From: Planctomycetota bacterium
Lineage (GTDB): Bacteria > Planctomycetota > Uabimicrobiia > Uabimicrobiales > JABWCH01
DNA: 64,000 bases
Reading direction: 5' to 3'
NCBI GenBank assembly: GCA_017993505.1
Contig: JAGOMP010000004.1
Coordinates: 1 to 64,000, forward strand
The translations under genes and the position numbers were made by a program. Below, piece by piece: positions 15,001 to 61,398 of the stretch (positions are counted from its first letter, which is position 1; every line of letters begins with the position of its first letter). The notes below the pieces were generated by a model. That model made no database searches, had not been told where the DNA came from, and worked only from the letters and a program-made list of their open reading frames with translations.

Positions 15001-16518
15001 AATAAGAAAATGGCGATAAAAGTAGAACAGTTTTCCTTTGACTAAAATAAGTTTTGTGAAAATTTCCATTAAAAATATAAAACATATGATTAAGTCTAGC
15101 CAACGAAAAAAGGTGTGTATTTTTCCAATTAAGCGGACTTCTAATGTATGGTCTTTTGCAATCACTAAAAAGGAATATCCATGTTTTTTATCTACAATTT
15201 CCCATTCTTGATGGTATTTATGGATAAGCACAACTATATCTTGCGATAATACGTATTGATTTTTTTCAAAAATTTTATAGATAGCTTTAGGTAAGGGTTC
15301 TACTTTGCTTGCCATACCAGCTGTGTCTGCATCATTTAAATCTGTGGCGTATTTTGGTGCTAAATCAAATTTATATTCTGAAAAATATTTAGTATCGTCT
15401 AAAAATAATAATAGAATCATAAGAAAAATTAAGAAGATAATAAAATTTTCAAAATAAAATACAAATTTTTTCCCAAAAATTGATTCTAATTTTTCTTGTA
15501 ATTCTTGTTCCTGTAATTCGGTAACGACAGATCGATATAGTTTTTTTACCTTTTTGTATTTTTTTTTTAATTTTTTATCATTTTTATTATTTTTATAATT
15601 TTCTTTCAGAAATTTCAGTAGCCATTTACAATCTTCTTTAATTGTAGTCAGTGTTTTCACTGTTTTTGCAAGACTAACTTCTTCAATGCTGACAATGGCT
15701 TCATCAAATCGTTCTTGCATTTCTGTAATTAAGTGGTCCGTCCAAGATTCTGCATCTTCTGGTAAACTTGCTTGTATCCTTTGGAGAATATAATTTTTTA
15801 AATTATTTCTAGCATTTCTACAATTATTAAAGATTACACGATGAGATTTTTTGCGTCGACTCATATTAGATGGAATGACATTGCCCCAACGTGTGATTTT
15901 TTTTATTTGTTCAAAAGATATTTCATCCTGTGCAAGAAGACGTTCTGTTTCTGCTTGAAACACGCGTACTTCTTCCTGCAATACTTGATCACTTAAATTT
16001 TGTACTCGTGCTTTAATACATTTAAAATAAATTTTTTTTAAACGATAAGATTGACTAATAAAAGCATAAACTTCGCTAAAAATATCAGGTGATATGTTTT
16101 GGTCAATATTTTTTTCTAAATGAACAGCCAATTTTTTTAAAAATAATAATTCTACTGCATAACTTTGTACTTGTGCCACAAGAATATGACTATCGAGTTG
16201 AACATTATAATCAATCTCATTGAAAATAATTTCCAACTCATTAATACGTTTAGCAAGCCAATTTTTGGCTTCTTGAGGAGATTGTTTTAATCTTTGATAT
16301 AGTTCTTGATAAATTGATAATTCGGCAGTTGTTAATGTTTGAGATAATAAAATTAAATCATTTTCTTCTAGAATATTTAATGAAATGCTAAATGACTCTC
16401 GAATTTCTAAAGATTTGTGATATAAATTCCATATTTTTTCCATATCACATTGCATGAGATCCACGGCTTGTTCATTGAGTTCTAAAATATTTTTTTTTAA
16501 AACGTGTGCCTCTTCCAT
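12052..16518 (-). CDS. Giant membrane protein with voltage-sensor-like S1-S4 unit
   Basis: A 1488-aa protein. Residues 1-345 are helical and charged. A hydrophobic helix near 355-380 (S1-like) is followed by a loop of about 95 residues. Then come an S2-like helix with FLMEIFTKLI near 480, an S3-like FLIDILPSIPVGF, and an S4-like helix at about 525-560. In the S4-like helix seven arginines recur at exactly every third residue (RLYRIIRLQRIVRYIRVIR). Such S4 spacing, and the F-x-x-E charge-transfer pattern in S2, are hallmarks of voltage-sensor domains. No pore loop or selectivity-filter motif follows. Further helices lie at about 773-840 and 1150, inside long soluble helical regions. It begins 26 nt after gspE. 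Function is unknown. Confidence 0.75.
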   Translation of the reverse strand: MEEAHVLKKNILELNEQAVDLMQCDMEKIWNLYHKSLEIRESFSISLNILEENDLILLSQTLTTAELSIYQELYQRLKQSPQEAKNWLAKRINELEIIFNEIDYNVQLDSHILVAQVQSYAVELLFLKKLAVHLEKNIDQNISPDIFSEVYAFISQSYRLKKIYFKCIKARVQNLSDQVLQEEVRVFQAETERLLAQDEISFEQIKKITRWGNVIPSNMSRRKKSHRVIFNNCRNARNNLKNYILQRIQASLPEDAESWTDHLITEMQERFDEAIVSIEEVSLAKTVKTLTTIKEDCKWLLKFLKENYKNNKNDKKLKKKYKKVKKLYRSVVTELQEQELQEKLESIFGKKFVFYFENFIIFLIFLMILLLFLDDTKYFSEYKFDLAPKYATDLNDADTAGMASKVEPLPKAIYKIFEKNQYVLSQDIVVLIHKYHQEWEIVDKKHGYSFLVIAKDHTLEVRLIGKIHTFFRWLDLIICFIFLMEIFTKLILVKGKLFYFYRHFLIDILPSIPVGFISTSLQRMEYAKFARLYRIIRLQRIVRYIRVIRPVIRIFRVITFLVRGIDRLVKRYARWLNRNIVFFGSFDEVQELQEPTFLQKIQELRTHYIFNNRRFYENLERPQPFMIAYIVSLEIRLQTPDEGIIIAESYSLKPDILIEDIMHLFLNLQGKQVEDILGRDFSYVIHQYMGYLDAPLIRRLPIVKRILALHKKHLAPDFTARIGRLFGRMLERILASIYWFCDLYGVVTASRLLDKIADKLILTFKHPTKRLFMFGGFFILANLLFSMLPFPFMKTILNYTTKIFGMPLIIMGCICLIPFLFGYWLRKVAGEASGFYEKIAEAQFINLLKTLKIEILEQDLQFIHDRVLQPEVRIRQQEDRNFPESITLMEQMRNNITNMQEEEESNETVTREEVSSERLYQQVLLLYKDYLDGAPLHKSDIKTTEQFLGNIIISNIRTHRLRYTKKQFKQLSRLDLTKNRSFFSPYLWFSFITQSICHNTAQLIFEYNKHAIRKSLLNMQTKENRAHYYKWLNKRSGKKRRASVEKIPSPELSKRKKLKLFKQTLFKWENTKPEYSTTYFNALHFLSYNPSQDEMIRFNFSEELYEIFCKDRENIIRTVFGTYPLRNLPKPQRSINMYQWYHEHLAGGRIFLFPFVLIWWACKAIWFSFKWCCVNINRLLKRDQYSEFEVSPKADFDVAIRKINRMRKPIYMACAKLRAQYDFEYLGLSLPWSEDLATDSIKETDEEKQHVALLMQDLEYIHALNHEYDYFRELISKRKKQLRKFIQFVEQQGWVENGFIEYLKKINPNINIQANSLVKELQHRHYQILRALAIAYTIDYRKLSSLLNAKETLMEVFDATLESKKLSLIQEIRIFFLRCKRRLSTWHNNWEYENFKKFWKDIEYDKKYNNKDKKRCWKAYIEKRTQLKEVLFIIKNEGDIVIIDEIIESIILNSSSWSDELLSLRTIQTLSVMDVKNYRQYIAQLGNY

Positions 16519-16544
16519 ACATCATTATCTTTCGTTTTATTTAA

Positions 16545-18248
16545 TTATATTGTATCCATTTGTGTGACACGTAGAACTTCATCAATAGTAATTGCACCTT
16601 CTAATACTTTTTTAGCACCATCCATTCTCAAAGTTCGCAAACCACGTTTTACAGCCTCTTGTTTAATAATAGTGGCTCCTAAACGTTGGATGACTTGTTC
16701 ACGAACTCTATCAGTAATGGGCAAAATTTCATACAAACCAATTCGATCTTTATAGCCTGTTCTCATACATTTTTCACAACCACTTCCCGCCATAAGTGTG
16801 CCTTTAGGCCCTAAATCAGTACGACTTAAACCAATAGATTGCAATTTTGCAACTGTAGGTTCATATTCTTCTTGGCATCCTGTGCAAATGCGCCGTGCTA
16901 ATCGTTGAGCAATCACGCAAATCACAGAGGAAGAAACTAAATAAGGTTCCACACCAATATCTAGTAATCGAGTCATAGCACTTGCTGAATCATTTGTGTG
17001 CATAGTAGAAAACACTAAGTGTCCTGTCAATGCTGCTTGTATAGCGATTCTAGCTGTTTCTTCATCACGAATTTCACCCAACATAATAATATCTGGGTCT
17101 TGGCGAAGTAATGTCCGTAATCCCATAGCAAATGTAAGACCTTTTTTTTCTGAAACTTGGATCTGGCTAATATTGCGGAGATGGTATTCAATCGGGTCTT
17201 CGATAGTCATTACATTTTTTTCAATAGCATTGATTTTCAATAAAGAACCATATAATGTAGTAGATTTTCCACTACCTGTTGGACCTGTTACTAGCATAAT
17301 TCCATGTGTAAAATGAATGAATTGTTCAATCATTTTAAGATTTTTTTTATCTAGCCCAATTTCATCTAGAGAATACATACGAGCAGATTTATCTAATAAA
17401 CGCATCACAATTCGTTCGCCATGCGATGTGGGAACAGATGAAATACGAATATCAACTTCTGAATCGCCCATTTTAATGGTTTTACGTCCATCTTGAGGCA
17501 ATCGTTTTTCTGCAATATCCATTCGTCCCATAACTTTAACACGACTGATAATCGCATCTTGGTGTTTTTTAGGAACAGATTGTACATCATATAAAATACC
17601 ATCAATTCTATATCGAACTTGCAATTTTTCTTCATAGGGCTGTAAATGGATATCACTCACCCTTTGTTTGATGGCTTGTAAAATAATGTTATTGACGGTG
17701 CGAATGATGGGAGGTTTATTGGACGCATCTAAAATATCCATTTCTTCTTCATCAAAGTCATCCACACCATCAGAGTCTTCGTCTAAATCAGCAACATTTG
17801 TTTCACTATTAATATTTTGTTTATATGCATTGTTAATAACAGCCACAATTTCAGAGCGAGGTGCTAAAACACTGTCTAATTCTGCATCTAAAAGACTCGC
17901 CAATTCATCCATAGGATGTGTTAAAAGTGGCGTGCATGTAGCAATTTGATAAATATTGCCTTCCATGCCAATGGCAATCAAATTATAATTGCGTGAAAAA
18001 TTAATCGGAACTTTACGACAGAAACTTTCAGGAACTAAAGACGGATCAATTTTTTCAACAAGACGAAACCCAAATTCATCAGCAAAAACTTGCAAAAAAT
18101 CTTTTTCTGTAATATATCCTCTCTGGATCATAAACTGGTCGATAGATAAGTTAAATTCTTCAGAACCTGCAATAATTTCGCCTATTTTTGATTCGTCTAA
18201 TAATCCATTCGTGACAAAGATTTCTAATAATTTATTTTTATTGATCAT
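16545..18248 (-). CDS. gspE: Type II secretion / pilus assembly ATPase GspE
   Basis: A 567-aa hexameric assembly ATPase of the GspE/PilB family, which powers pseudopilus or pilus extension at the inner membrane. An N-terminal MshEN-like region (about 1-130) is followed by an acidic linker, then the ATPase core. The core has Walker A GPTGSGKSTTLY near residue 320, an Asp box, Walker B region IIMLGEIRDEETA and a His box GHLVFSTMHTND. A tetracysteine zinc site (CTGC ... CEKC, about 457-495) supports GspE/PilB over PilT. The gene lies downstream of gspD but is separated by a strong hairpin. No other gsp core genes are in the window, so T2SS versus type IV pilus remains open. Confidence 0.92.
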   Translation of the reverse strand: MINKNKLLEIFVTNGLLDESKIGEIIAGSEEFNLSIDQFMIQRGYITEKDFLQVFADEFGFRLVEKIDPSLVPESFCRKVPINFSRNYNLIAIGMEGNIYQIATCTPLLTHPMDELASLLDAELDSVLAPRSEIVAVINNAYKQNINSETNVADLDEDSDGVDDFDEEEMDILDASNKPPIIRTVNNIILQAIKQRVSDIHLQPYEEKLQVRYRIDGILYDVQSVPKKHQDAIISRVKVMGRMDIAEKRLPQDGRKTIKMGDSEVDIRISSVPTSHGERIVMRLLDKSARMYSLDEIGLDKKNLKMIEQFIHFTHGIMLVTGPTGSGKSTTLYGSLLKINAIEKNVMTIEDPIEYHLRNISQIQVSEKKGLTFAMGLRTLLRQDPDIIMLGEIRDEETARIAIQAALTGHLVFSTMHTNDSASAMTRLLDIGVEPYLVSSSVICVIAQRLARRICTGCQEEYEPTVAKLQSIGLSRTDLGPKGTLMAGSGCEKCMRTGYKDRIGLYEILPITDRVREQVIQRLGATIIKQEAVKRGLRTLRMDGAKKVLEGAITIDEVLRVTQMDTI

Positions 18249-20425: not shown

Positions 20426-20801
20426 TTTTTACCCTTCCCACCTTATATAAAAATCAACAATTTTTAATTATACGAAAAATTTTCATTTCAGTTTATCAAA
20501 TCATAATATATAAGTCAAAGAAAAATAATTTTGAACCCTACCATACAAAAGGCTTTAAGTATATTTATTTAACCATGATACTTATAATAATAATTTAGTT
20601 TCATTATTATAATGATTTCATTTCATTTTTCAAGATGTTTGTATCCTTTTTGCCACATGATTTCTATTTTTCATTTTTTTTGGATGAGTTGATAAAATAG
20701 ATCTTGATGAATATTTTTCTTGCATCTTTTTATAATTTCCTTTAAATTAAAGTACAAATTTTCTAATATAATTCATTAGGTATATTAAGAATACATAAAA
20801 A

Positions 20802-20991
20802 TTGAAAGTACAATACATAAAATTGAAAGTACAATACATAAAATTGAAAGTACAATACATAAAATTGAAAGTACAATACATAAAAAACATAAAATTGAAA
20901 GTACAATACATAAAAATTGAAAGTACAATACATAAAATTGAAAGTACAATACATAAAAATTGAAAGTACAATACATAAAAATTGAAAGTAC
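20802..20991. repeat. Nine-copy 21-22 bp tandem array
   Basis: The core TTGAAAGTAC occurs at 20802, 20823, 20844, 20865, 20895, 20917, 20938, 20960 and 20982, with spacers reading AATACATAAA(A)A. Spacing is 21 or 22 bp except one 30-bp step, that is, about two DNA turns. All copies face the same way, towards the RND efflux genes. Confidence 0.97.
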
Positions 20992-21008
20992 AAATTTTTT
21001 AATAGAAT
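20982..21008 (+). promoter_or_regulatory. Candidate promoter of the RND operon
   Basis: TTGAAA (20982-20987, the start of the last array unit) and TAGAAT (21003-21008) are separated by 15 bp, slightly short of ideal. A start about 8 nt further on would leave a short leader with AAGGA (21034-21038) before the ATG at 21045. Confidence 0.4.
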
Positions 21009-27580: not shown

Positions 27581-27720
27581 AATATAAATTCTACGTATTT
27601 CAATGTTGAATATAAATTCTACTTGTTTCAATGTTGAATATAAATTCTACGTATTTCAATGTTGAACGTAAATTCTGCTTATTTCAATGTTGAATGTAAA
27701 TTCTGCTTGTTTCAATGTCA
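27581..27720. repeat. Five 28-bp tandem repeats entering a gene 3' end
   Basis: Five contiguous 28-bp units (AATATAAATTCTAC then KTRTTTCAATGTTG) run 27581-27608, 27609-27636, 27637-27664, 27665-27692 and 27693-27720. Units 4 and 5 overlap the last eleven codons and the TGA stop of the GNAT-like gene. There are no intervening spacers, so this is not a CRISPR array. Confidence 0.95.
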
Positions 27721-38628: not shown

Positions 38629-41025
38629 ATGCCTGATTATTCGGATCTTTTTTTAATACAAATATTATTGGAAAAAAAATTAATTACTGTAAAAGAACTA
38701 CGAGATCCACTTTGTTTTCATTATCGCAAAATGATGAGTGGAACTTCTATCCCTTTTTCTGAGACTTTAGAACAACTGGGCATTTTAAATCAGGAAGATC
38801 TATATAAAATTGACTTAAATATAAAAAAAATAATGAGTACAATTTCACCTATAAGTACGATTTTGCCTGAAAATATTTTGATAGAAGATTGTAAACAAGA
38901 AAAATTATTAGGAAATAATTCATTAGGAAGTACATATTTAGCCAATCACCCCCAATTGGGACATAGCATATATAAAAAATTAGATGGAATTATTGGACGC
39001 AATGCAAAATTTATGAAGCGATTTTTAAGTTCAATGAAAAAAATGGAGAAAATACGCCACAAAAATTTAGCAGATGTATATAAAGTAGACATAGAAAATC
39101 ATGTTGTGCTTCGCGAGTTTATAGAAGGAGAGACTCTAGAAACATTGCTTCAAAAACGTGTATTAAATTGCCAAGAAGCAAGCGTTGTTTTAGTAGATGT
39201 TATAAATGGATTGCAAACTCTGTACAAACACGGGATTTTGCATAGAAATTTAAAACCATCCAACATCATCATTACAAATGAAAGTCATGCTAAAATTTTA
39301 GATGCCTCATTACCTCCCACAGTAGCAACATACCTTGCACCAGAACAAATACAAAAAAAACGTACAGACGTTCGTTCTGATATTTATGCATTGGGTATGA
39401 TGTATTATCGTTCTTTAGGTGGTCAATCTCCAGATACATTGGCTGAATTTTTTCAAGAAAAAGAAATCCCAGAAATGGTATGTAAAATTTTGCAAAAAAT
39501 ATTGGATAGCAATTATGAAAATCGATATGCTAATTACGAAAATATTTTGCAAGATTTAAAAGAGTATTTAAATTTTGCTGAAATTGAAATTGAAGATACT
39601 ATTTTTTCTATTAAAGATCATTGCCAACGTGCACAACAAGTTGCAACAGAAATCATCCAAGAATTAATACCTTCTTGGACAGACGCCATACAAAATGCTT
39701 GTCTCCAACAAAAATTTTATGAACATCTTGCACCTATGATTCAAATTGCAACACAAAAATTTGTTCATAATGTGGGGGTAGAATGGTTAGATTATTTAGA
39801 CGTCGCATTAGAAGATTTGCGCCAAAGTGTGACATTAGAATTGATGCAATATCAAGACGAATTAGAAGATCAATATGACACTAGAACAGAAGAATCTGCT
39901 GAGGATCTTCCCAAAGGTTTTATTCCTATTGATGAACACGAAATTTTAGATGCAGAAGTAGCTTCTGCTGATTTAGCTGATATTATGGAAGAAGATTCTA
40001 TTTTTCAAACTTTTTCTGACTTAGAAAATATAGCAGAGACTTCTATGGATGCTGTTTCTGTAGATGATGAAAATGATTTTCAATGGGATACTGACGAATC
40101 CTTTCCACAAGAAAAAGATTTTGATATGGTATTTGGGAAACAACATAGTAGCTATACAACATGGGAACATGATATAGATGAATCTATTGATGATCAAGAA
40201 TATTTAGACGACATATCAGAAACAAAAATTAAACCGGCATTTCCTAAACAGGAAGAAACTTCCCCACACGAAACAAAAATCAAACCCGCCTTTCCCAAAA
40301 AAGAGGAAATGATCAGTAGCGATTCCAAAATCAAGCCAGCTTTCCCTAAAAAAGAAGCTTCCACTGACGAACCCATTGACAGTGGAACTAAAATCAAGCC
40401 AGCTTTCCCTAAAAAAGAAGATTCCACTGACGAACCCATTGACAGTGAAACTAAAATCAAGCCAGCTTTCCCTAAAAAAGAAGATTCCACTGATGAACCC
40501 ATTGACAGTGAGACTAAATTAAAGCCAGCTTTCCCTAAAAAAGAAGATCCCACTGACGAATCCATTGACAGTGATTCAAAAATCAAGCCTATCTTGTCTA
40601 AAAAACTCACTACCCATGAAGAAAAAAAAGTAGAATCTAAAAAAACAAGCCATCCCACATATTCGTTTACAACTACAGGACAAGCTATGCTTCACAAAAA
40701 AAATCGCTTTGAAAACAAGCCACTGTTGACAGAACAAAATACAGAAGAAGCACAAAATGAAGACATAGCTATATGGAAACGTCCTGCCAATGAAATTCAT
40801 ATTTCTAATAAACCTTTGCCAGACCAAGCAACTCTTTTAGAATTAGCCAAACAAGATATGCAAGCACAAGCAAAAAACGAAGAAAAAAAAGAGAATGACT
40901 TACAAGAACAACAAGAACAACAAGAAGAGCAAGAAGCACAAGAAAACGATTCTTTTCTTTCTGCAGAAGAAAAAGAAGCCAAATTAAAACCCTATTTTTT
41001 AACATCAAATACATCTGAGAATTAG
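38629..41025 (+). CDS. Predicted Ser/Thr pseudokinase with KIKPAFPKKED repeats
   Basis: A 798-aa protein. Residues 1-80 form the same kind of helical module as the kinase at 28269-30761 (LITVKELRD ... LGILNQEDL). A kinase fold follows at about 85-320, with a degenerate glycine loop (LGNNSLGSTY), a lysine pair at 116-117, HRNLKPSN at 205-212, DAS at 225-227 and YLAPEQ. The catalytic aspartate of HRD is replaced by asparagine, and the DFG motif by DAS, so phosphotransfer is not expected. About 330-520 is helical and acidic. About 524-657 holds repeats of the form SETKIKPAFPKKEDSTDEPI, and the C-terminus is E/Q-rich. It is 15 nt upstream of a coiled-coil membrane protein and likely acts with it as a scaffold. 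Confidence 0.85.
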   Translation: MPDYSDLFLIQILLEKKLITVKELRDPLCFHYRKMMSGTSIPFSETLEQLGILNQEDLYKIDLNIKKIMSTISPISTILPENILIEDCKQEKLLGNNSLGSTYLANHPQLGHSIYKKLDGIIGRNAKFMKRFLSSMKKMEKIRHKNLADVYKVDIENHVVLREFIEGETLETLLQKRVLNCQEASVVLVDVINGLQTLYKHGILHRNLKPSNIIITNESHAKILDASLPPTVATYLAPEQIQKKRTDVRSDIYALGMMYYRSLGGQSPDTLAEFFQEKEIPEMVCKILQKILDSNYENRYANYENILQDLKEYLNFAEIEIEDTIFSIKDHCQRAQQVATEIIQELIPSWTDAIQNACLQQKFYEHLAPMIQIATQKFVHNVGVEWLDYLDVALEDLRQSVTLELMQYQDELEDQYDTRTEESAEDLPKGFIPIDEHEILDAEVASADLADIMEEDSIFQTFSDLENIAETSMDAVSVDDENDFQWDTDESFPQEKDFDMVFGKQHSSYTTWEHDIDESIDDQEYLDDISETKIKPAFPKQEETSPHETKIKPAFPKKEEMISSDSKIKPAFPKKEASTDEPIDSGTKIKPAFPKKEDSTDEPIDSETKIKPAFPKKEDSTDEPIDSETKLKPAFPKKEDPTDESIDSDSKIKPILSKKLTTHEEKKVESKKTSHPTYSFTTTGQAMLHKKNRFENKPLLTEQNTEEAQNEDIAIWKRPANEIHISNKPLPDQATLLELAKQDMQAQAKNEEKKENDLQEQQEQQEEQEAQENDSFLSAEEKEAKLKPYFLTSNTSEN
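40213..40600. repeat. In-frame 63-bp repeats (KIKPAFPKKED)
   Basis: About seven degenerate units; the four central ones are nearly identical 63-bp blocks containing AAAATCAAGCCAGCTTTCCC and GACGAACCCATTGACAGTG. Outer copies are shorter (TKIKPAFPKQEE) and decayed, which suggests recent central expansion. Confidence 0.93.
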
Positions 41026-44491: not shown

Positions 44492-45205
44492 ATGAAAAAA
44501 TATAATAAAATACTAATCAAACTTAGTGGAGAAAGTTTAGGAAAGAACGGTCAATTTCATTTAGAAAGAGTCCAGCATATCCTAGATGAAATAGTGCAAC
44601 TCCACGATAATGAAGTACAAATAGGAATTGTAGTAGGCGGAGGCAACTTCATACGAGGTGCTCAACTTACCACAGCGGGAATCTCGCGCCAAGTTGCTGA
44701 TGATATGGGTATGTTAGGGACAGTGATAAATGCACTACTCTTCCAAGAACTTCTTGCTCAAAGAGGCAAACAAAGTCAAATATACACAGCACGCGAAATT
44801 CAAGGAATTGGAAGCACATACCATTTCAGAAATATACAAGAAAATTTAATGCAAAGAAAAATTCTTATATTTGCAGCAGGAACAGGTCACCCTTACTTTA
44901 CAACAGACACTGGAGCAGCATTAAGAGCCGTGGAAATGGAAGCACAATGTTTATTTAAAGCAACCAAAGTAGATGGCGTTTACAACGATGATCCACATAC
45001 AAACCCAAAAGCAACAAAGTTTGATTATTTGACATATCAACAAGTTTTAACAGATAAATATAGAGTCATGGACTTAACAGCAGTTTCCTTTTGTATGGAA
45101 AACCATCTACCCATACTTGTATTTGATCTAATGAAACCAGGCAACCTCCTCAAAGCAATCCAGGGTGAAAATGTTGGAACCCTAATTACAGATTGCCAAA
45201 ACTAA
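44492..45205 (+). CDS. pyrH: UMP kinase
   Basis: A 237-aa hexameric UMP kinase of the amino-acid-kinase fold, which makes UDP. Motifs are ILIKLSGESLG at the start, VVGGGNFIRGA (phosphate loop), DDMGMLGTVINALLFQE (UMP site), FAAGTGHPYFTTDTGAALRA and ATKVDGVYNDDPHTNP. I start at MKKYNKILI, where the family begins. The longer frame from 44432 would start inside the terminator hairpin and add a hydrophobic leader. No clear Shine-Dalgarno sequence precedes this ATG, only an A-run. It is third in rpsB-tsf-pyrH-frr. Confidence 0.93.
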   Translation: MKKYNKILIKLSGESLGKNGQFHLERVQHILDEIVQLHDNEVQIGIVVGGGNFIRGAQLTTAGISRQVADDMGMLGTVINALLFQELLAQRGKQSQIYTAREIQGIGSTYHFRNIQENLMQRKILIFAAGTGHPYFTTDTGAALRAVEMEAQCLFKATKVDGVYNDDPHTNPKATKFDYLTYQQVLTDKYRVMDLTAVSFCMENHLPILVFDLMKPGNLLKAIQGENVGTLITDCQN

Positions 45206-45240
45206 TTTTCCAATTAGTCTCCACAAGAAAGGTATTCCAC

Positions 45241-45795
45241 ATGTCAGCAGAAGTATTAAAAGAAGTCGAAGAAAAAATGGACAAAGCATGTGAAGTTCTA
45301 GTCAATGATATGAAAGGACTCCGAACCGATAGAGCAACTCCTGCCCTAGTTGATAATATCAGAGTCGAATACTATGGATCTCCTACTCCATTAAAACAAA
45401 TCGCCAACGTATCTATTCCAGAACCTCGCATACTCATCATCAAACCCTTTGATGCATCCTCACTCAAAAACATTGAAAAAGCCATTTTAAAAAGCGATTT
45501 AGGAATCACACCAGCTAACGATGGAAAAATGCTAAGACTAACAGTGCCAGTTCTTTCAGAAGAACGACGCCTACAACTTATAAACCAAGTCAAAGACTTA
45601 ACAGAAAAAGCCAAAGTTGCTATCCGTAACATTCGTCGAGATGCCAACAAAAAAGCCGATCAACTAGAAAAAGACAAACTCCTTAGCGAAGATGAAAACA
45701 AAAAACTACAAGAAAGCATCCAAAAAACTACAAAATCCCACGAAGACGAAGTTGACAAACTCGCTGAAGAAAAGAAAAAAGAAATCCTCAAATAA
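45241..45795 (+). CDS. frr: Ribosome recycling factor
   Basis: A 184-aa ribosome recycling factor that splits post-termination ribosomes with EF-G. It has MKGLRTDRATPALVDNIRVEYYGSPTPLKQIANVSIPEPR, the conserved hinge, and the helical LPVLSEERR-like VPVLSEERRLQLINQVK, then RNIRRDANKK. Standard length. The ATG at MSAEVLKE is chosen since AAAGG lies at the right distance and the upstream frame overlaps pyrH. It closes the cluster before a long terminator. Confidence 0.96.
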   Translation: MSAEVLKEVEEKMDKACEVLVNDMKGLRTDRATPALVDNIRVEYYGSPTPLKQIANVSIPEPRILIIKPFDASSLKNIEKAILKSDLGITPANDGKMLRLTVPVLSEERRLQLINQVKDLTEKAKVAIRNIRRDANKKADQLEKDKLLSEDENKKLQESIQKTTKSHEDEVDKLAEEKKKEILK

Positions 45796-45813
45796 AAATT
45801 TTGACGGTACATT

Positions 45814-45868
45814 ATAAAAAAAAGTAAAAAGTAAATATGTTGCGTATTTACTTTTTACTTTTTTTTAT
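45814..45868 (+). terminator. Terminator of the rpsB-frr cluster
   Basis: A 24-bp stem (ATAAAAAAAAGTAAAAAGTA plus AATA and its complement) around TGTTGCG, ending in a long T-run. It marks the boundary between the core translation genes and the repeat/restriction region. Confidence 0.88.
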
Positions 45869-45925
45869 AGCACAACTTTTTCTCTTAGATAGACAAAACT
45901 TACTAAATTTACTCTTGCACTGGGT

Positions 45926-46245
45926 AAGTGTCTCTTGCTCTGGGGTGAAAAATTTGCTCTGGGGTGTAAATTTGCTCTGGGGTGTAAATTTGCTCTGGGA
46001 AAGCGAACTTGCTCGAGGAAATGAATGTTGCTCTGGGAAAGTGTCAGGTGCTCGGGGGAGGAAACCTTGCTCGGGGGAATGAATGTTGCTCTGGGAAAGT
46101 GTCAGGTGCTCGGGGGAGGAAACCTTGCTCGGGTGAGGTTGCTTCGGGGAATAAAATTGCTCTGGGGAGGCAAATTTGCTCGGGGGAGGCAAATATTGCA
46201 CGGAGGAGTTGCACGGGGGAATTAGTTTGCTCTGGGGAGGTGCTA
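45926..46245. repeat. G-rich TTGCTCTGGGG array A, downstream of the R-M gene
   Basis: About 18 copies of TTGCTCTGGGG/TTGCTCGGGGG and variants, spaced 15-30 bp, all on the plus strand. It contains a perfect duplication of about 54 bp (46021-46074 and 46079-46132, starting TGAATGTTGCTCTGGG). The array reaches to within about 20 nt of the restriction-modification gene stop. G-runs make it strongly unlike the A/T-rich surroundings. A minus-strand frame through it reads Ser-Pro-Glu-Gln repeats but has no credible start. Confidence 0.93.
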
Positions 46246-46262
46246 GAATAAAAGTTAAACGT

Positions 46263-49200
46263 CTAGCACTCTTTTTTTACGCGAAGTTTTTGAAATGTTG
46301 TTGTTTTAGTTACTTTTGATGTTATTATTTTTAGTTTTACTACTTTTTTTTCTATTTTTTCATTAGTTGTTTTTGTTTCTTTTGTTGATTTTGTTGTTAC
46401 TTTAGATTTTGCTACTTTTTTATTAGTTGTTGATTTGATAGTTGCTTTAGTAGCTTTTGGTGTTACTTTTTTTATGGTTCGTTTTGATGTCATAGGACTC
46501 GATGCGTAGATTTCTGTTTCAGTTTCATTATTGTCTGTTTTCTTTGTTTTTCTAGTTTTTACTTTTGTTTGTTTATTTTCTTTATCTTCTATTTCGTTGT
46601 TGTCTGTTTTCTTTATTTTTCTAGTTTTTACTTTTGTTTGTTTATTTTCTTTATCTTCTGTTTCGTTGTTGTCTGTTTTCTTTATTTTTCTAGTTTTTGC
46701 TTTTATTTGTTTATTTTCTAGTTCTTTGTTTTCTTTTTCCGTAGTTTCCGTGTTTTTTGTATTTTTATTTTTCGTAGTCTTTGTCTTTTTGCTTTCTTTT
46801 TTGTCCGTAGTTTCTAATTCTGTGTTTTCAGTGTTTTCAGTGGTTTCTATATTCTTATTGTCCGTGGTTTCTGTGTTTTTCGTGGTTTGTTTTTTGCTTT
46901 TTCTGGTTTTTGTCTTTGTACTTTGTTTTTTGTCTATGTTTTTGTTTTTGTCCGTAGTTTCTAATTCTGTGTTTTCAGTGGTTTCTATATTCTTATTGTC
47001 CGTGGTCTCCGTGGTCTCCGTGGTTTCATCATCTTCTGTGGTCTCCGTGGTCTCATCATCTTCTGTGTTTTCTGTATTCTTATTGTCCGTGGTCTCCGTG
47101 GTTAGGAGTTGTTGGTACATTTGCATAAGGTCAGAGACAATTTCTGCTTCGTTGTCAAGATCCCAGTTTTTGTTATAGATTTTTGCAACTTCTTTGTCTA
47201 GTTTTTGATGGGCTTTTCGTAGAGCAGGCGGCATAGTTAAAGGATCGTATAGAGCAGCTAAGTTAGAATCAGGATACTTTGCCCGTGTATCTAAAATATT
47301 TTGTCCTAGTTCATTGAGTTTTTGTTTTTGTGTTTCTGTAAGTTCAGGAAATGGAAAGTTATTGTAAACAACATTTGCAGAATAACGATAACCATTTCCA
47401 AATCGTCCTGTAACGACTCGCATCCATGCATTGTGAACTTGGGAATTTAAAATAGCAAATATATATAAAGGACAATCTGGAATACAATGGAGTGAATCTG
47501 TTGCAATAGTTGTATCTGATACAAAATCCATGGGAATATATTCTCTTTGATCGGATGTAACTCTTGGAATGACAAGGTAATTTGTTGTTGGATGACGTAT
47601 TTCAGCAAATAAGGAAGAAGTCAATGCTTTTTCTCGTGTAGATTTTTTAGAACTTTTTAAGCGGAAATTTCGCACTTTTTCAATTCGTTCTTGCACTAAA
47701 GGCATAGATTTGATTTCTTGTGGTGTGGCATCTACTAACCATAATGCATATCGATCTTTATTGTAAAGGAATTCTTGTGTACCTATTAATTTTTTTATAA
47801 ATTTTTTAGCTTTAGGTTCTTTTTTTATAAATTCATCATAATCTTTTTCTTCAATGATCAAATGACCACCATCAGTAGGTTTATTTGCATATACCATTTT
47901 AGGCACGTCACAAATTGGAGTAGTTCGACTTTGTACTATAATATTGGGTGCATCTACTAAATATGGGTTAATATTGTTTGCAATTTGTTTAATAACAATA
48001 GTTTCATATTTTTTTGTGTTTTTTGTCTTGTCTAGATAATCATCTATAGGTTTTTGTGTGTATGTGAATATAGTTTTTTCTTTGTCATTCTTTGTTTGAG
48101 AAAATCCAATGATCACACACGTAACAGTTGCTTTTTTTATTCGTTCTTGTTTTTGTTTTTTTTCTTTTTTCTGTCTTCCTTGTTTTTGTGCTCCTTGTTT
48201 TCTTGTTGTTGCTAATTCTAATTGTCTTTCTCTATATAAAATAGTTTCTTCTGATTCTTGATCCCATGGAAAACTTCTATAGCAAAAATCAATGTGCAAA
48301 CCATATTTTTCTATCATGTCTGTCCATAGAGGACCTACTTGTTCGCCTTGTGTAATGGAACTTGTAGATACAAAGGCAACTTGAATGTCTGTGTTTTGGA
48401 TATATTCTGCTGCTTTATAATACCAACACGCCACATAATCTAAAATTTTATGTGTAGTCAATCTAGATTGGTCTTGTTTTTGTTGTTTTGTCATCAAAGA
48501 AAAACCTAAAAACGGCGGATTTCCAATGATGTAATTTAATTTGTCTTTTGGAATGATATTTTGCCAATCGATTTGCAAGGCGTTTTCTTCATGGATATAC
48601 GCATTTGTTTTTAAAGGAAAGAATGGAATCTTTCGTTCCATGATAGATTCTGTTTTTTGCATCATTTGGAGTTCTGCAATCCATAAAGCAGTTTTTGCTA
48701 CAGTAACTGCAAAATCATTAATTTCAATTCCATGGAAATTTTCAATTTCTACTTTGATTTTTAGATTAGGCGTTTGTTGGTTTGTTTCTTTGTCTATGCA
48801 ATGGATAGATTCTAAGATTAGATTTTCTAATTTTCGTAAGGAAATGTACGTTTGTGTAAGAAAATTACCAGAACCGCACGCAGGATCTAGGAATGTTAAA
48901 GAGGCAATTTTTGTTTGTAGATCAAGTAAGGCTTGTTTTTTTTCTTGTAAGATCGTTTGTTTTTTAATGTTTCGAAATTCATCTTTTAAATCATCTAAAA
49001 ATAAAGGATCAATGACTTTATGGATATTTTCAATGCTAGTATAGTGCATGCCACCTTTTCCACGAGTTTCTGGATTTAAAGTATTTTCAAATACAGAACC
49101 AAATACAGTTGGGCTGATTTCTGACCAATCAAAGTTTTTAGTAGCTTCTTCAACTAATAAATGATAGATAGCGTGCGTGCATTTTGGAATCGTAATGTTT

Positions 49201-50060
49201 TTATCTTGAAAAAGTCCACCATTAATATAAGGAAATGCAGCAAAATCATCTTCTAAAAAGGGATCTCGTTCGTTTTGTTTTTGGTTTAAGACTTTAAATA
49301 AACGCATTAAAGTTTCACGTAAATTAATTTCATTTCTAGATTTAAGTAAATCTTGAAACATTCCTTTTCTACCAAATAATTCAGAACTATCAGAATATAA
49401 ACAAAAAACAATGCGGACGCAAAGTATATTTAAGCTAGTTAAAACGTGTTCTGTAATAGGCATGTTCGCAGATGTAAATTCTTGTTTTAAAAGGTCATAC
49501 AATTGTGCAACGATTTCTCCAGCTTTTAAGGAAACAGCAGTTTCTTTTTGAATTTGCGTACTATCTGCGTCAATGAGAAAATTAAGTCGGTAATATTCTT
49601 GTGGTAAGTCTTTTAAATACAGAATCTCGGGCGGTTCTTGTTTATTTTCCATGTCATAGATGTAGAATTCTTGAAAATTGCAAACAATGATCCAACGCGG
49701 CATTTCAGAATAATCTAGCATGTCACTATAAAAATGTGCTTGGTCAATCGCAGATAACAACGTACCATCGCTTTGTTTAACTGGTTTTTCTAGGTTGACA
49801 TTCGAACTTTTTTGTTCAATCAATACTTTAGTTTCAGGAATGTACGCATCAATAAATTTAATCGTTGTATTTTTAGCAGGCTTTTCAAATTGGATGAATT
49901 CATCAGGATATTTAACACCAAATACACGATGTAGCAATCCTGACCAAAACATTTGACAATTGCCCTTTTCATATCCTTTATTTTGGTGCAACTTCACAAA
50001 ATCTATTGCTGCATTTTTCTTGTCTAATTTAGACATAGGAATTAAATCATCTAATTTCAT
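46263..50060 (-). CDS. MmeI-like type IIL restriction-modification enzyme
   Basis: A 1265-aa single-chain R-M protein that both cuts and methylates DNA. The N-terminal nuclease motif is D71-x10-E82-x-K84, almost where MmeI has D70/E80/K82. A helical linker follows. The N6-adenine methyltransferase has motif I FLDPACGSGNFL near 390 and motif IV NPPF near 511. A target-recognition region and the family's C-terminal NGYRYSANVVYNNFPFP follow. The MmeI-like part ends near 983. The remaining 280 residues are T/E/N/K-rich repeats (TETTDNKN, KKTDNNE), not part of the known family. It is bracketed by arrays A and B. One specificity should be methylated on one strand only, as in other type IIL enzymes. 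Confidence 0.88.
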   Translation of the reverse strand: MKLDDLIPMSKLDKKNAAIDFVKLHQNKGYEKGNCQMFWSGLLHRVFGVKYPDEFIQFEKPAKNTTIKFIDAYIPETKVLIEQKSSNVNLEKPVKQSDGTLLSAIDQAHFYSDMLDYSEMPRWIIVCNFQEFYIYDMENKQEPPEILYLKDLPQEYYRLNFLIDADSTQIQKETAVSLKAGEIVAQLYDLLKQEFTSANMPITEHVLTSLNILCVRIVFCLYSDSSELFGRKGMFQDLLKSRNEINLRETLMRLFKVLNQKQNERDPFLEDDFAAFPYINGGLFQDKNITIPKCTHAIYHLLVEEATKNFDWSEISPTVFGSVFENTLNPETRGKGGMHYTSIENIHKVIDPLFLDDLKDEFRNIKKQTILQEKKQALLDLQTKIASLTFLDPACGSGNFLTQTYISLRKLENLILESIHCIDKETNQQTPNLKIKVEIENFHGIEINDFAVTVAKTALWIAELQMMQKTESIMERKIPFFPLKTNAYIHEENALQIDWQNIIPKDKLNYIIGNPPFLGFSLMTKQQKQDQSRLTTHKILDYVACWYYKAAEYIQNTDIQVAFVSTSSITQGEQVGPLWTDMIEKYGLHIDFCYRSFPWDQESEETILYRERQLELATTRKQGAQKQGRQKKEKKQKQERIKKATVTCVIIGFSQTKNDKEKTIFTYTQKPIDDYLDKTKNTKKYETIVIKQIANNINPYLVDAPNIIVQSRTTPICDVPKMVYANKPTDGGHLIIEEKDYDEFIKKEPKAKKFIKKLIGTQEFLYNKDRYALWLVDATPQEIKSMPLVQERIEKVRNFRLKSSKKSTREKALTSSLFAEIRHPTTNYLVIPRVTSDQREYIPMDFVSDTTIATDSLHCIPDCPLYIFAILNSQVHNAWMRVVTGRFGNGYRYSANVVYNNFPFPELTETQKQKLNELGQNILDTRAKYPDSNLAALYDPLTMPPALRKAHQKLDKEVAKIYNKNWDLDNEAEIVSDLMQMYQQLLTTETTDNKNTENTEDDETTETTEDDETTETTETTDNKNIETTENTELETTDKNKNIDKKQSTKTKTRKSKKQTTKNTETTDNKNIETTENTENTELETTDKKESKKTKTTKNKNTKNTETTEKENKELENKQIKAKTRKIKKTDNNETEDKENKQTKVKTRKIKKTDNNEIEDKENKQTKVKTRKTKKTDNNETETEIYASSPMTSKRTIKKVTPKATKATIKSTTNKKVAKSKVTTKSTKETKTTNEKIEKKVVKLKIITSKVTKTTTFQKLRVKKEC
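46290..47110. repeat. Low-complexity repeats in the R-M tail
   Basis: In-frame degenerate repeats encode TETTDNKNIETTENTE-type units (about 46800-47100) and a 75-bp-like unit encoding TKVKTRKIKKTDNNE (about 46520-46720, three copies). The last part is basic (KATKATIKSTTNKKVAKSK). Codons stay A/T-rich, unlike the flanking G-rich arrays. Confidence 0.85.
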
Positions 50061-50239
50061 CGTATGCCTACCTTTTTAATCAATACACCACGCCTAGAAA
50101 CTAAGACCACCTAGAAACTAAGATATAGAATAAAAACAACTTCCAAACAATAATCTAATCCATAAAAAATAATTGCACGCCATTGTATCAAAAATACAAT
50201 GCAAAAAAAAGAGAAAAAAGGAATATATTTTTATATGGA

Positions 50240-50545
50240 AAGTTGCTCTGGGGAGGCAATGTTGCTCTGGGGAGTTAATCTGCTCTGGGGAGGTACTCTG
50301 GGGAGGCAATGTTGCTTTGGGGAAGTGTCAGGTGCTCGGGGGATGGTAATGTTGCTCGGGGGAGGCAATGTTGCTCTGGGGAGTTAATCTGCTCGGGGGA
50401 GTTAATCTGCTCCGGGGAGTTGGTAATGTTGCTCGGGGGAGGCAATGTTGCTCTGGGGAGTTAATCTGCTCGGGGGAGTTAATCTGCTCTGGGGAGTTAA
50501 ATATTGCTCTGGGGAGTTAAATTCTGGGAAGTGAATTCTGGGGAC
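50240..50545. repeat. G-rich TTGCTCTGGGG array B, upstream of the R-M gene
   Basis: About 15 good copies of the array A motif plus two decayed ones, all in the same orientation as array A. Sub-blocks such as GGCAATGTTGCTCTGGGGAG and TTAATCTGCTCGGGGGAG recur. The phrase GTGTCAGGTGCTCGGGGGA is shared exactly with array A, showing common origin. Confidence 0.93.
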
Positions 50546-50569
50546 TGAAATTTATTAAATTTATTAATG

Positions 50570-50770
50570 CGTCTGTGAAAACAAAAAGGCTTAGAATTAC
50601 ATAGAATGTGTGAATAGAAATGAAAATACGTAAAATTACATAAAATTCGTAAATGAAAATAAAAACGCGTAAAAATGCATAAAATACATTAAAACGCGTA
50701 AAAATTTGTAAAATCCGTGAATCGAAATGAAAACGCGTAGAATTACTTGAAAATGCTTGAATACTTAGAA
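50570..50770. repeat. Degenerate AACGCGTAAAAAT repeat zone
   Basis: Irregular units of about 20-30 bp, with AAAACGCGTA three times (near 50655, 50692, 50731) and related ACGTAAAATTACATAAAAT phrases. It adjoins array B and seems to be an independent, more decayed repeat. Confidence 0.65.
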
Positions 50771-50786
50771 ATGTGCGAGTTTCCTT

Positions 50787-50822
50787 TACTCTGGGGAGAC
50801 AATGTTGCTCGGGGGAAGCAAA
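50787..50822. repeat. Isolated copies of the G-rich motif
   Basis: CTCTGGGGAGACAATGTTGC and TGCTCGGGGGAAGC lie 110 nt before sbcD, separated from array B by the ACGCGT zone. They suggest that array B was once longer or was interrupted. Confidence 0.8.
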
Positions 50823-50932
50823 ACAATGCTTTTACCAATGCGTTTTTATATCGTTGTATTTTTTATTTTATATTTGTATAAGATTTTTGTATAGTATACA
50901 AAAAATGTAAGAATATTAGAGAAAGGAAATGT

Positions 50933-52081
50933 ATGAAAATTGTACATACTGCAGATTGGCATATTGGAAAAATATTATATGGACAACAACGCTACCAAGA
51001 ATATATAGATATTTTAGAGGAATTTAAGGAGCATCTTTTTCAAAGGGAAGTGGATGTGCTTTTGATTGCTGGCGATGTTTATGATTATCAAAATCCATCA
51101 CCAGATTCTAAAAAATTACTTTATGATTTTCTATATGATATTTCTAAACGCAATATACAAACAGTAATAATTGCTGGCAATCATGATAGTGAGAATTATT
51201 TTGAAGCTTTAAAAAATATTATGCAACTTGCAAATGTTACTATTCGTGGGTTTGTCCATCCAGATGCTACTCCCACTACTCTTATATTAGAAAAAAATGG
51301 CCAGATTGTTCATTTTTTTCTACTTCCTTTTATTTCAGAAAAATATTTTTTGCAAACACAAAATTTTGAAAAAGAAGATACGCATCAACAATTATATTCG
51401 AAGGGAGTGGGAAAAATATTGAATAGGATTGTAGAAGGGAAAAATCCAGACCATATATACATTGTGGTGTCTCATATTTTAATTCATGGTGCAAAGGTCA
51501 GTGGGAGTGAAAAACGCTTATATCTTGGTTCAAATTATGCTGTTCATCCCTCACAAGTTCCAGATGGCATTGATTATTTTGCATTGGGGCATATGCATTA
51601 TCAACAAAAAATTGAAGAATCTTTAGTTCCTATATATTATGCAGGCTCTATTTTACAAATTGATTTTGCTGAACGTGAAACGCAAAAAGGATACTTATTT
51701 TTAGATACAGAACAAGATCGACCGTTTGTTCCAGAATTTGTTCCTCTTTCAAAATCAAAAAAATTAGTATCTTTAAAAGGAACGTGGCAGGAGATTCAAC
51801 AACAAACAGAGACAATAGATAAAGAAAATACATATTTTGCATTAGATATTCAAGAACAAATGAATATTCCTATTTCACAAATTCAGAAGGAGTTACCAAA
51901 TACATTAAAAATTCAACAACAACCTCAAGTAATTCCTGATGTAGAAATTCATCATCAAGCTGCAGATTGGTTGCCAGATATGTATAGAAAATATTATCAA
52001 GCACAAGAAAAGCAGCAGGTTTTGCCACAAGTTTTGCAAGAATTTCAGCAACTGTATACGAGTTGTGTGCGAAAAAAGTAG
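50933..52081 (+). CDS. sbcD: DNA double-strand-break nuclease subunit SbcD
   Basis: A 382-aa Mre11-type metallophosphoesterase that cuts hairpins and blocked DNA ends together with the SbcC ATPase. All metal-site motifs are present: D8-W-H10 in TADWHIGK, GDVYD near 48, GNHDS near 83, SHILIHG near 178 and GHMHYQ near 223. The C-terminal capping domain is of normal length. The ATG follows AGAAAGG. SbcC is not adjacent, which is unusual because the pair is normally one operon; here the next gene is a barrel protein 181 nt downstream. Confidence 0.93.
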   Translation: MKIVHTADWHIGKILYGQQRYQEYIDILEEFKEHLFQREVDVLLIAGDVYDYQNPSPDSKKLLYDFLYDISKRNIQTVIIAGNHDSENYFEALKNIMQLANVTIRGFVHPDATPTTLILEKNGQIVHFFLLPFISEKYFLQTQNFEKEDTHQQLYSKGVGKILNRIVEGKNPDHIYIVVSHILIHGAKVSGSEKRLYLGSNYAVHPSQVPDGIDYFALGHMHYQQKIEESLVPIYYAGSILQIDFAERETQKGYLFLDTEQDRPFVPEFVPLSKSKKLVSLKGTWQEIQQQTETIDKENTYFALDIQEQMNIPISQIQKELPNTLKIQQQPQVIPDVEIHHQAADWLPDMYRKYYQAQEKQQVLPQVLQEFQQLYTSCVRKK

Positions 52082-56928: not shown

Positions 56929-58377
56929 TTATTCCATTGTTTTTTGTTCAGTAGGAGTTGTTTGCTCGGGGGTGGTTTCTTTTTCTGTATTTTCTTCTTG
57001 TATTGGTTCTTGTTCAATTGGAGTTGTTTGCTCTGAGGTGTTCGTTTGATCAGGCGTTGCTTGTTCAATTGGTGTTGTTTGCTCTGGGGTGATTGTTTGC
57101 TCCGTGGTTGCTTGTTCAGTAGGAGTTGTTTGCTCTGGGGTGATAGTTTGATCAGGCGTTGTTTGCTCTTCTTGTATTAGTTCTTGTTCAATTGGTGTTG
57201 TTTGCTCTGGGGTGATCGTTTGCTCCGTGGTTGCTTGTTCAGTAGGAGTTGTTTGCTCTGGGGTGATAGTTTGATCAGGCGTTGTTTGCTCTTCTTGTAT
57301 TGGTTCTTGTTCTATAGGAGTTGTTTGCTCTGGGGTGATCGTTTGATCTGGCATTGTTTGCTCTGGGGTGATCGTTTGATCTGGCATTGTTTGCTCTGGG
57401 GTGTTCGTTTGCTCTGGGGTGATCGTTTGCTCTGGGGTGATCGTTTGCTCCGTGGTTGCTTGTTCAGTAGAAGTTGTTTGTTCTGGCGTTGCTTGTTCAG
57501 TAGGAGTTGTTTGCTCTGGCGTTGCTTGTTCAGTTGTTTCTTGTTCAGTAGGAGTTGTTTGCTCTGGGGTGATCGTTTGATCTGGCATTGTTTGCTCTGG
57601 GGTGTTCGTTTGCTCTGGAGTGATAGTTTGCTCCGTGGTTGCTTGTTCAGTAGGCGTTGTTTGTTCTGGCGTTGCTTGTTCAGTTGTTTCTTGTTCAGTA
57701 GGAGTTGTTTGCTCTGGCGTTGCTTGTTCAGTTGTTTCTTGTTCAGTAGGAGTTGTTTGTTCTGGCGTTGCTTGTTCAGTTGTTTCTTGTTCAGTTGGTG
57801 TTGTTTGTTCTGTTTGCTCTGGGGTGATTGGTTGCTCCATAGTTGCTTGTTCGGACGTTGTTTGGTCAGGTGCTGTTTGTTTTTGTTGAATCTTTTGTCT
57901 GGGCAATTGAGTTTGTTTTTTATTTGTGGTAACAGGATGTTGATGTTTTTTACTAATTGGTTGGGCTGGTTTTTGTTTTATTTTTTGAAAGATGCGTTTT
58001 ATCTTTATGGTATAAGAAGTAATCGTATTTTTTAGTTGTTGATAGTTGTTTTTTATGTATTTTTCTTGTTCTTGTTGTAGGAGTTGTACATATGTATCGT
58101 TGTATATATTTTGTAGGAATGATAGTTCTTTGAATGATTTTTTGCTTTTTGGAATGAAGTGGATGGTAATTTCAAAGAGTATTAGTAAGATAAAGAGTAG
58201 ATATATAGTGAGTGTCAATGTGTTTTTGATGAATTTGTATATAGGGCGTTTTTTAGGTGGCTTAGGATTTTGGATTGTAATGGGAATGCTACAGTAGGGG
58301 CAATTTCCTGTTTTGTTATGGCTGTTTTCTGGTGCTAGTATGATGTTACCACAGTTGCATTGAATTTTAATAGCCAT
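56929..58377 (-). CDS. Zinc-ribbon membrane protein with TPEQ repeat tail
   Basis: A 482-aa protein. The N-terminus is a short zinc ribbon (CNCGNIILAPENSHNKTGNC then PYC; C7/C9 with C26/C29 roughly). One membrane helix follows at about 49-70 (TLTIYLLFILLILFEITIHF), then a basic linker. From about 175 to the end, some 300 residues consist of TPEQTTPTEQ, TIT-PEQ and TTEQA repeats. The zinc ribbon should be cytoplasmic and the acidic, proline-rich tail extracytoplasmic. Such tails act as spacers or adhesins in other proteins; here the role is unknown. The T-P-E-Q codons are ACCCCAGAGCAA, the exact complement of the intergenic motif of arrays A and B. Confidence 0.8.
   Translation of the reverse strand: MAIKIQCNCGNIILAPENSHNKTGNCPYCSIPITIQNPKPPKKRPIYKFIKNTLTLTIYLLFILLILFEITIHFIPKSKKSFKELSFLQNIYNDTYVQLLQQEQEKYIKNNYQQLKNTITSYTIKIKRIFQKIKQKPAQPISKKHQHPVTTNKKQTQLPRQKIQQKQTAPDQTTSEQATMEQPITPEQTEQTTPTEQETTEQATPEQTTPTEQETTEQATPEQTTPTEQETTEQATPEQTTPTEQATTEQTITPEQTNTPEQTMPDQTITPEQTTPTEQETTEQATPEQTTPTEQATPEQTTSTEQATTEQTITPEQTITPEQTNTPEQTMPDQTITPEQTMPDQTITPEQTTPIEQEPIQEEQTTPDQTITPEQTTPTEQATTEQTITPEQTTPIEQELIQEEQTTPDQTITPEQTTPTEQATTEQTITPEQTTPIEQATPDQTNTSEQTTPIEQEPIQEENTEKETTPEQTTPTEQKTME
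56941..57850. repeat. Coding TPEQ repeat array
   Basis: Around 50 units of 12-18 bp with plus-strand core TTGCTCTGGGGTGATNGTTT or TTGTTCAGTAGGAGTTGTTT. Larger blocks (for example 57062-57180 versus 57183-57295) are near-identical, showing segmental duplication. One copy (near 56962) has the TTGCTCGGGGG form also found in array A. Confidence 0.93.
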
Positions 58378-61151: not shown

Positions 61152-61264
61152 TTTTGATTGTTTGAGGTAGAAATTATTTTTTGATAATTTTTCAACTATT
61201 TTTTTCGTTTGTTCATTTTAACAGGCTATTTTATAAATTGCAAGAAAATATTCTTGTTTATAGG

Positions 61265-61398
61265 TTTTATATATGTGAATTTAGTTAAAGTGGATGTTTT
61301 TTAGGTTTAGGTTTTGGATACGTGAATTTAGTTAGATAGATATTTTTTAGATTTAGGTTTTAAATATGTTAATTTTATTAGATAGATATTTTAGGTTG
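61265..61398. repeat. Three 46-bp degenerate tandem units
   Basis: Units start at about 61265, 61312 and 61358, each reading TTTTxxATAYGTGAATTTAG, then GATAGATATTTTTTAGATTT and AGG. The third is shortened. They lie in the spacer between the VWA gene terminator and the dynamin-like gene. Confidence 0.85.

Follow-up and report, generated by a model that had tools for sequence, protein, structure and literature searches.

A lineage-specific direct-repeat array element associated with RAYT-like transposases borders a Type IIL restriction-modification gene in a Planctomycetota genome

RAYTs are widespread domesticated transposases; known RAYT systems use palindromic REPs, and the way in which these proteins spread repeats is still poorly understood. 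The closest described counterparts of the repeats reported here are the REP, BIME and REPIN elements, which together with TnpAREP form REPtrons and, like our arrays, are high-copy, mostly extragenic and lineage-specific and cluster near a RAYT-type Y1 HUH transposase. However, REPs are palindromes in inverted pairs, whereas the units studied here are direct repeats in long arrays. REP types also come mostly with one full-length RAYT gene each, and no REPtron has been found transposing as a unit (PMC6006769), whereas the present genome possesses six or more close RAYT loci, all of them accompanied by arrays. IS200/IS605 elements likewise belong to the Y1_Tnp family and occur in multiple copies within one genome, but IS200 copies are near-identical, whereas the RAYT copies described below are diverged, under purifying selection and closer to the REP-associated model.

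G-rich tandem repeats with short units are also highly enriched in some bacteria, including Xanthomonas and Nostoc (PMC4692102). In comparison to our arrays, their units are shorter (6-9 nt versus ~18-20 nt) and were studied as quadruplex formers, whereas the two arrays at the centre of this work, A and B, contain no canonical quadruplex. The gene lying between these arrays has the full domain set of the MmeI Type IIL restriction-modification (R-M) family and aligns with its solved member, 5hr4 (PMC4833311), but differs from the described family in that the genome holds seven paralogs with seven sets of contact residues, and in its long, repetitive Lys/Thr tail. R-M genes with repeat borders, as found here, are known from mobile R-M systems that are associated with repeats or IS (PMC3031569), although in the present case the borders are arrays common to many non-R-M loci.

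The window, meaning the whole stretch of 64,000 nt analysed here, comprises bases 1-64000 of contig C41, part of a fragmented MAG without 16S (3.08 Mb, 103 contigs). Its Pkinase-FGE proteins and its order mates with large genomes suggest a placement in Planctomycetota near Uabimicrobium. The first-pass annotation had described two G-rich repeat arrays in the same orientation on either side of a Type IIL R-M gene in an A/T-rich chromosome, and this arrangement was upheld (Table 1). The G-rich strand is the forward strand in both arrays, the window has a G+C content of 33%, and all five Pfam models of the MmeI family (MmeI_N, helical spacer, MTase, TRD and C) matched above cutoff within the single chain of the bracketed enzyme, which aligned with characterised MmeI (phmmer against 5hr4, E = 4.3e-169). 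The copy numbers originally given (~18 in A and ~15 in B) are approached when more degenerate units are counted in addition to those in Table 1. A and B do share a phrase, the longest exact one being 21 nt (AAGTGTCAGGTGCTCGGGGGA), at an overall identity of ~70%. Array A fills the gap in which frr and the MmeI-like gene converge, starting straight after the terminator hairpin of the latter, and array B occupies the divergent gap between the R-M gene and a sbcD-like gene. Stretches resembling the A/T-rich companion repeats also adjoin arrays on contigs C23 and C44. No Rfam family matched within positions 45000-51800. Five further tandem repeats, some of them intragenic, were observed in the window.

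Table 1 Features of the window and of comparable loci elsewhere in the genome
Feature	Location	Positions	Strand	Description
Array A	window	45935-46237	+ (G-rich strand)	14 units TTGCTC[TG]GGGG with at most 1 mismatch; spacers mostly 7-9 nt
Terminator-like hairpin	window	46238-46290	-	AGTGCTAGA...TCTAGCACT; 3' end of R-M gene
Type IIL (MmeI-like) R-M gene	window	46263-50060	-	1,265 aa; MmeI_N, hel, MTase, TRD and C domains plus tail
Tail of MmeI-like gene	window	46263-47100		C-terminal; Lys/Thr-rich, repetitive, length-variable
Upstream block	window	50061-50236	-	with TGCATTGTATTTTTGATACAATG hairpin; kept in paralogs C52, C20, C50
Array B	window	50243-50514	+ (G-rich strand)	13 units with at most 1 mismatch
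A/T-rich companion repeats	window	50553-50785	+	ACGCGTAAAATTACATAAAATTCGTAAAT type
Two-unit remnant of array element	window	50786-50815	+	core match with at most 1 mismatch
TPEQ-rich repeat-protein gene	window	56929-58377	-	17 in-frame copies of core (CCCCAGAGCAA read as xPEQ)
Tandem repeat	window	9808-10042		24 nt unit
Tandem repeat	window	20790-20993		21/43 nt
Tandem repeat	window	27581-27718		28 nt unit
Tandem repeat	window	40327-40589		63 nt
Tandem repeat	window	61261-61392		46 nt
Second tandem repeat upstream of RAYT genes	L151	14209-14768		~57 nt, CACCTGTCCAATGCACATGTATAAT...; internal palindromes
Second tandem repeat upstream of RAYT genes	L115	3174-3870		as above
C5 cytosine methylase (with HTH) and EcoRII-C-like nuclease	L126 (C65)	15479-17706		R-M pair between arrays
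NADAR antitoxin homologue	L130 (C69)	4513-5142		DarT1-associated; alone between two arrays

A and B represent an interspersed repeat that is specific to this lineage and forms arrays of direct repeats at well above 100 sites, most of them intergenic, in one A/T-rich genome. A genome-wide search for the core, TTGCTC[TG]GGGG, as proposed in the first-pass annotation, returned 1,014 exact occurrences in 3.08 Mb and none of the reversed control, which excludes a chance origin; 684 adjacent core pairs were counted. The two window arrays were among at least 126 arrays with three or more copies in the 2.33 Mb read (1,505 copies in total). These range from 3 to 32 units (median 11.5 copies, 245 bp) and draw on a common unit vocabulary, each unit consisting of the 11-nt core, usually followed by AG, and a purine-rich spacer mostly of 7-9 nt. 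Of the readable contig ends, 48/178 fall inside an array; the assembly is thus interrupted by arrays, whose true number is higher. Arrays at the ends of contigs C2/C62, C65/C67, C52/C98, C6/C76 and C1/C26 overlapped exactly over 86-120 nt; considered as candidates for inter-array gene conversion, these matches were read as assembly overlaps, and the paired contigs are probably neighbours in the real genome.

The element appeared restricted to this lineage. Array pairs occurred in none of the 118 relatives searched (0/118), three of the same family included, and among the matches listed for GTDB and viral contigs, those outside the studied genome were isolated and apparently due to chance. A literature search with the core sequence returned only unrelated papers, apparently through primers. 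Within the genome, arrays had a gene 3' end facing them in 116 cases and a 5' end in 57, a preference for 3' ends. The core was also found inside genes, namely those of four unrelated repeat proteins, one in the window (56929-58377, every spacing a multiple of 3) and the others on contigs C36, C70 and C82. Coding copies lie on the antisense strand, are always read as xPEQ and have spacings divisible by 3 in 40/40 cases, a constraint absent from intergenic spacings. This indicates that the same nucleotide element resides inside genes, with the reading frame kept.

Arrays are closely associated with a transposase family. Among the seven Y1_Tnp loci of the genome, six lie 520-911 bp from an array, thereby combining a RAYT with flanking repeats within 1 kb as REPtrons do, and the seventh copy is degenerate; most arrays have no RAYT nearby. 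The protein scored above the cutoff for Y1_Tnp (PF01797), carries NHVH and YIDLNM motifs and had TnpAREP (4er8, E = 0.002) as its sole PDB match. Against the REP-associated transposase model NF047646 it reached 73.7 bits, compared with 32.2 bits against the IS200 model; as the former value is below the curated NCBIfam cutoff of 80, we refer to the protein as RAYT-like. Placed by the YIDLNM motif only, it resembles RAYT subclass 2.1, which has YIELNP and for which no REP-like repeats were found (PMC6006769). The active-site motifs were kept in all four intact copies, whose dN/dS of 0.05-0.06 indicates strong purifying selection. Copies are homologous from an upstream array of a second, ~57-nt repeat (Table 1) through a hairpin and the gene itself to ~420 bp into the 3' flank, with homology ending where the array units begin. 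In the order-mate G005, a different motif, CGAGTCTGKCAC, was found in 24 copies, 19/24 of them within 2 kb of RAYTs and the motif not being genome-wide in that genome; the RAYT-repeat link therefore recurs with another sequence. The same-family genomes G001 and G002 had neither a match to the studied RAYT nor the array motif.

The palindromic architecture of REPs was considered as a general feature of the arrays and rejected, hairpins at unit junctions averaging -0.83 kcal/mol, a marginal gain over the -0.56 kcal/mol for shuffled spacers. With regard to a GT[AG]G foot, GGAG occurs in most units, GTAG is not unit-defining, and no general hairpin lies beside it. Since the palindrome is missing, the elements fall outside the strict definition of REPs and would be better described as REP-like in life style.

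Dispersed gene families showed the same proximity to arrays. Three families had at least three copies spread over contigs at 60% identity or more, namely the MmeI-like genes, the RAYTs and a Ser/Thr kinase with an FGE-like domain, and nearly all their copies are close to arrays; the other 16 families were pairs, 14/16 on one contig. A more diverged kelch family followed the same array-adjacent pattern. Contigs end both at multi-copy genes and at arrays, and the raw association is inflated as a result; end-excluded tests are therefore also given. Paralog genes were enriched near arrays overall (Fisher, p = 6e-6) and away from ends (p = 0.005), and, with arrays masked, those dispersed repeats that lie over 1 kb away from a stretch end abutted arrays in 10/51 cases versus 1.3 expected; the end-excluded tests thus stay positive, for few loci. 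Duplicated blocks end at arrays. Secreted kelch proteins were seen to adjoin arrays at L111, L091, L150, L163 and L059 (contigs C50, C29, C89, C97 and C2), and kelch genes neighbour an MmeI-like gene three times.

A second R-M pair, a C5 cytosine methylase and an EcoRII-C-like nuclease, lies between arrays on contig C65, one of which begins 5 bp past the nuclease stop. No target duplication or IS was identified at R-M borders. The check proposed in the first-pass annotation, whether other arrays flank accessory genes, came out positive for the multi-copy families (MmeI-like, 6/7 RAYT loci, kinase and kelch) and this R-M pair. However, arrays are not specific to restriction genes, as frr and sbcD in the window and a PriA-like gene on contig C60 also touch them. 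Among the 25 most frequent Pfam families listed per set, domains of the MmeI, kelch and Type I specificity kinds turned up near arrays but were missing from the far set, and in the PADLOC tally kinase models dominated near-array and far sets alike, making it uninformative on defence enrichment. A homologue of the DarT1-associated NADAR antitoxin was also observed alone between two arrays (Table 1).

The genome has seven genes with an MmeI_TRD domain, whereas no such gene was found in five order relatives. A common terminator, followed at once by an array, is present in four copies (C41, C52, C20 and C94), the terminator-like hairpin of the window gene being kept in the other three; in two copies (C2 and C97) a kelch gene and then an array follow, and one copy (C25) lacks a 3' array. 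Sequence related to the tail was also noted beside arrays on contigs C6, C26 and C44, in some cases without a nearby MmeI body. Identity between paralogs was 90-98% in the N-terminal and methyltransferase domains and 65-76% in the TRD. At the eight base-contacting positions described for MmeI (PMC4833311), the seven paralogs displayed seven different residue strings (C97 being read only in part), and columns with at least three residues were more frequent among contact positions (7/8) than among other TRD positions (33/182, p = 8e-5). Differing contact residues and more variable contact columns predict different specificities, and each MmeI-like paralog probably has its own. For the window enzyme, with a Tyr/Lys pair at the position-2 sites and an Arg/Asp pair at the position-3 sites, the published MmeI code predicts C:G at position 2 and G:C at position 3.

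To explain these observations we favour, at about an even chance of being correct, a lineage-specific, REP-like but non-palindromic array element that is linked to the RAYT, has spread through the genome and borders copied blocks. The RAYT would have nicked and moved array DNA, seeding new sites, where arrays would then have grown through local tandem duplication. Inter-array blocks, for example the R-M gene together with its promoter and terminator, would have been copied around the genome with the arrays as their borders. The paralogs would afterwards have diverged, chiefly in the target recognition domain, and so have provided the cell with a set of restriction specificities. The A-B bracket may thus represent a border left by block copying and not an efficient excision site today.

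A less probable but still serious competitor is that the arrays are passive minisatellites, grown by slippage and unequal exchange, spread by ordinary recombination or rearrangement and tolerated in 3' flanks, with the RAYT and R-M families carrying them passively. Long near-perfect duplications inside arrays (longest exact self-repeat, median 46 nt) are consistent with such growth, and the over-representation of convergent gaps (16/50 array gaps versus 122/1,274 gaps) is what neutral insertions would show. Array edges in general likewise displayed neither terminator enrichment nor a conserved terminator, an edge at a terminator being seen for the MmeI copies on C41, C52, C20 and C94. However, the 11-nt core is far better conserved than the spacers between distant arrays, G005 shows the RAYT-repeat link again with a different motif, and more than 100 dispersed sites are not explained by slippage alone.

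The first-pass annotation had proposed that the same-oriented arrays allow the R-M gene to be excised, duplicated or replaced by recombination. Ongoing exchange of this kind would fit seven MmeI-like genes that mostly lie beside arrays, the C5-methylase/EcoRII-C pair that is likewise found between arrays and the duplicated blocks with ends at arrays, but we consider it very unlikely. A and B have only the short exact phrase and ~70% identity in common, and their longest exact matches to other arrays (26 nt for A and 37 nt for B) are below the median of a random-unit null (41 nt), so that recent excision or exchange has left no visible trace. Other arrays, contig-end pairs excepted, also share no more exact sequence than this null. 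Furthermore, dS between paralogs is mostly 0.3-0.6, showing that the MmeI paralogs are not recent, and housekeeping genes are flanked by arrays too. A structural or regulatory role, in which protein binding or quadruplex formation by the G-rich units influences transcription, replication or nucleoid folding, is similarly improbable: the conserved core, G4Hunter maxima of at least 1.5 in 74/91 long arrays versus 0.07% of genome positions, folding of array B that surpasses shuffled sequence on either strand (z = -4.5 and -3.6) and a weak bias of the G-rich strand with GC skew (74/119) speak for it, but the canonical quadruplexes anticipated in the G-runs (four runs of at least 3 G, loops of at most 7 nt) were found in 1/126 arrays and in neither A nor B, array location follows no single gene function and no consistent promoter or terminator position, and relatives lack the arrays.

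Returning to the RAYT-linked element, a bolder proposal is that this RAYT lineage mobilises non-palindromic direct-repeat arrays, and that these serve as borders for copying and diversifying restriction, kinase and kelch genes, yielding seven specificities in one cell line; we regard this as speculative and rather unlikely in its full form. If a RAYT lineage is indeed tied to direct-repeat arrays at the borders of duplicated genes, this would broaden the present picture of RAYTs and offer a natural test of what a RAYT cuts. Finally, seven close Type IIL enzymes that differ at their contact residues would make the evolution of specificity within one genome testable by methylome sequencing.
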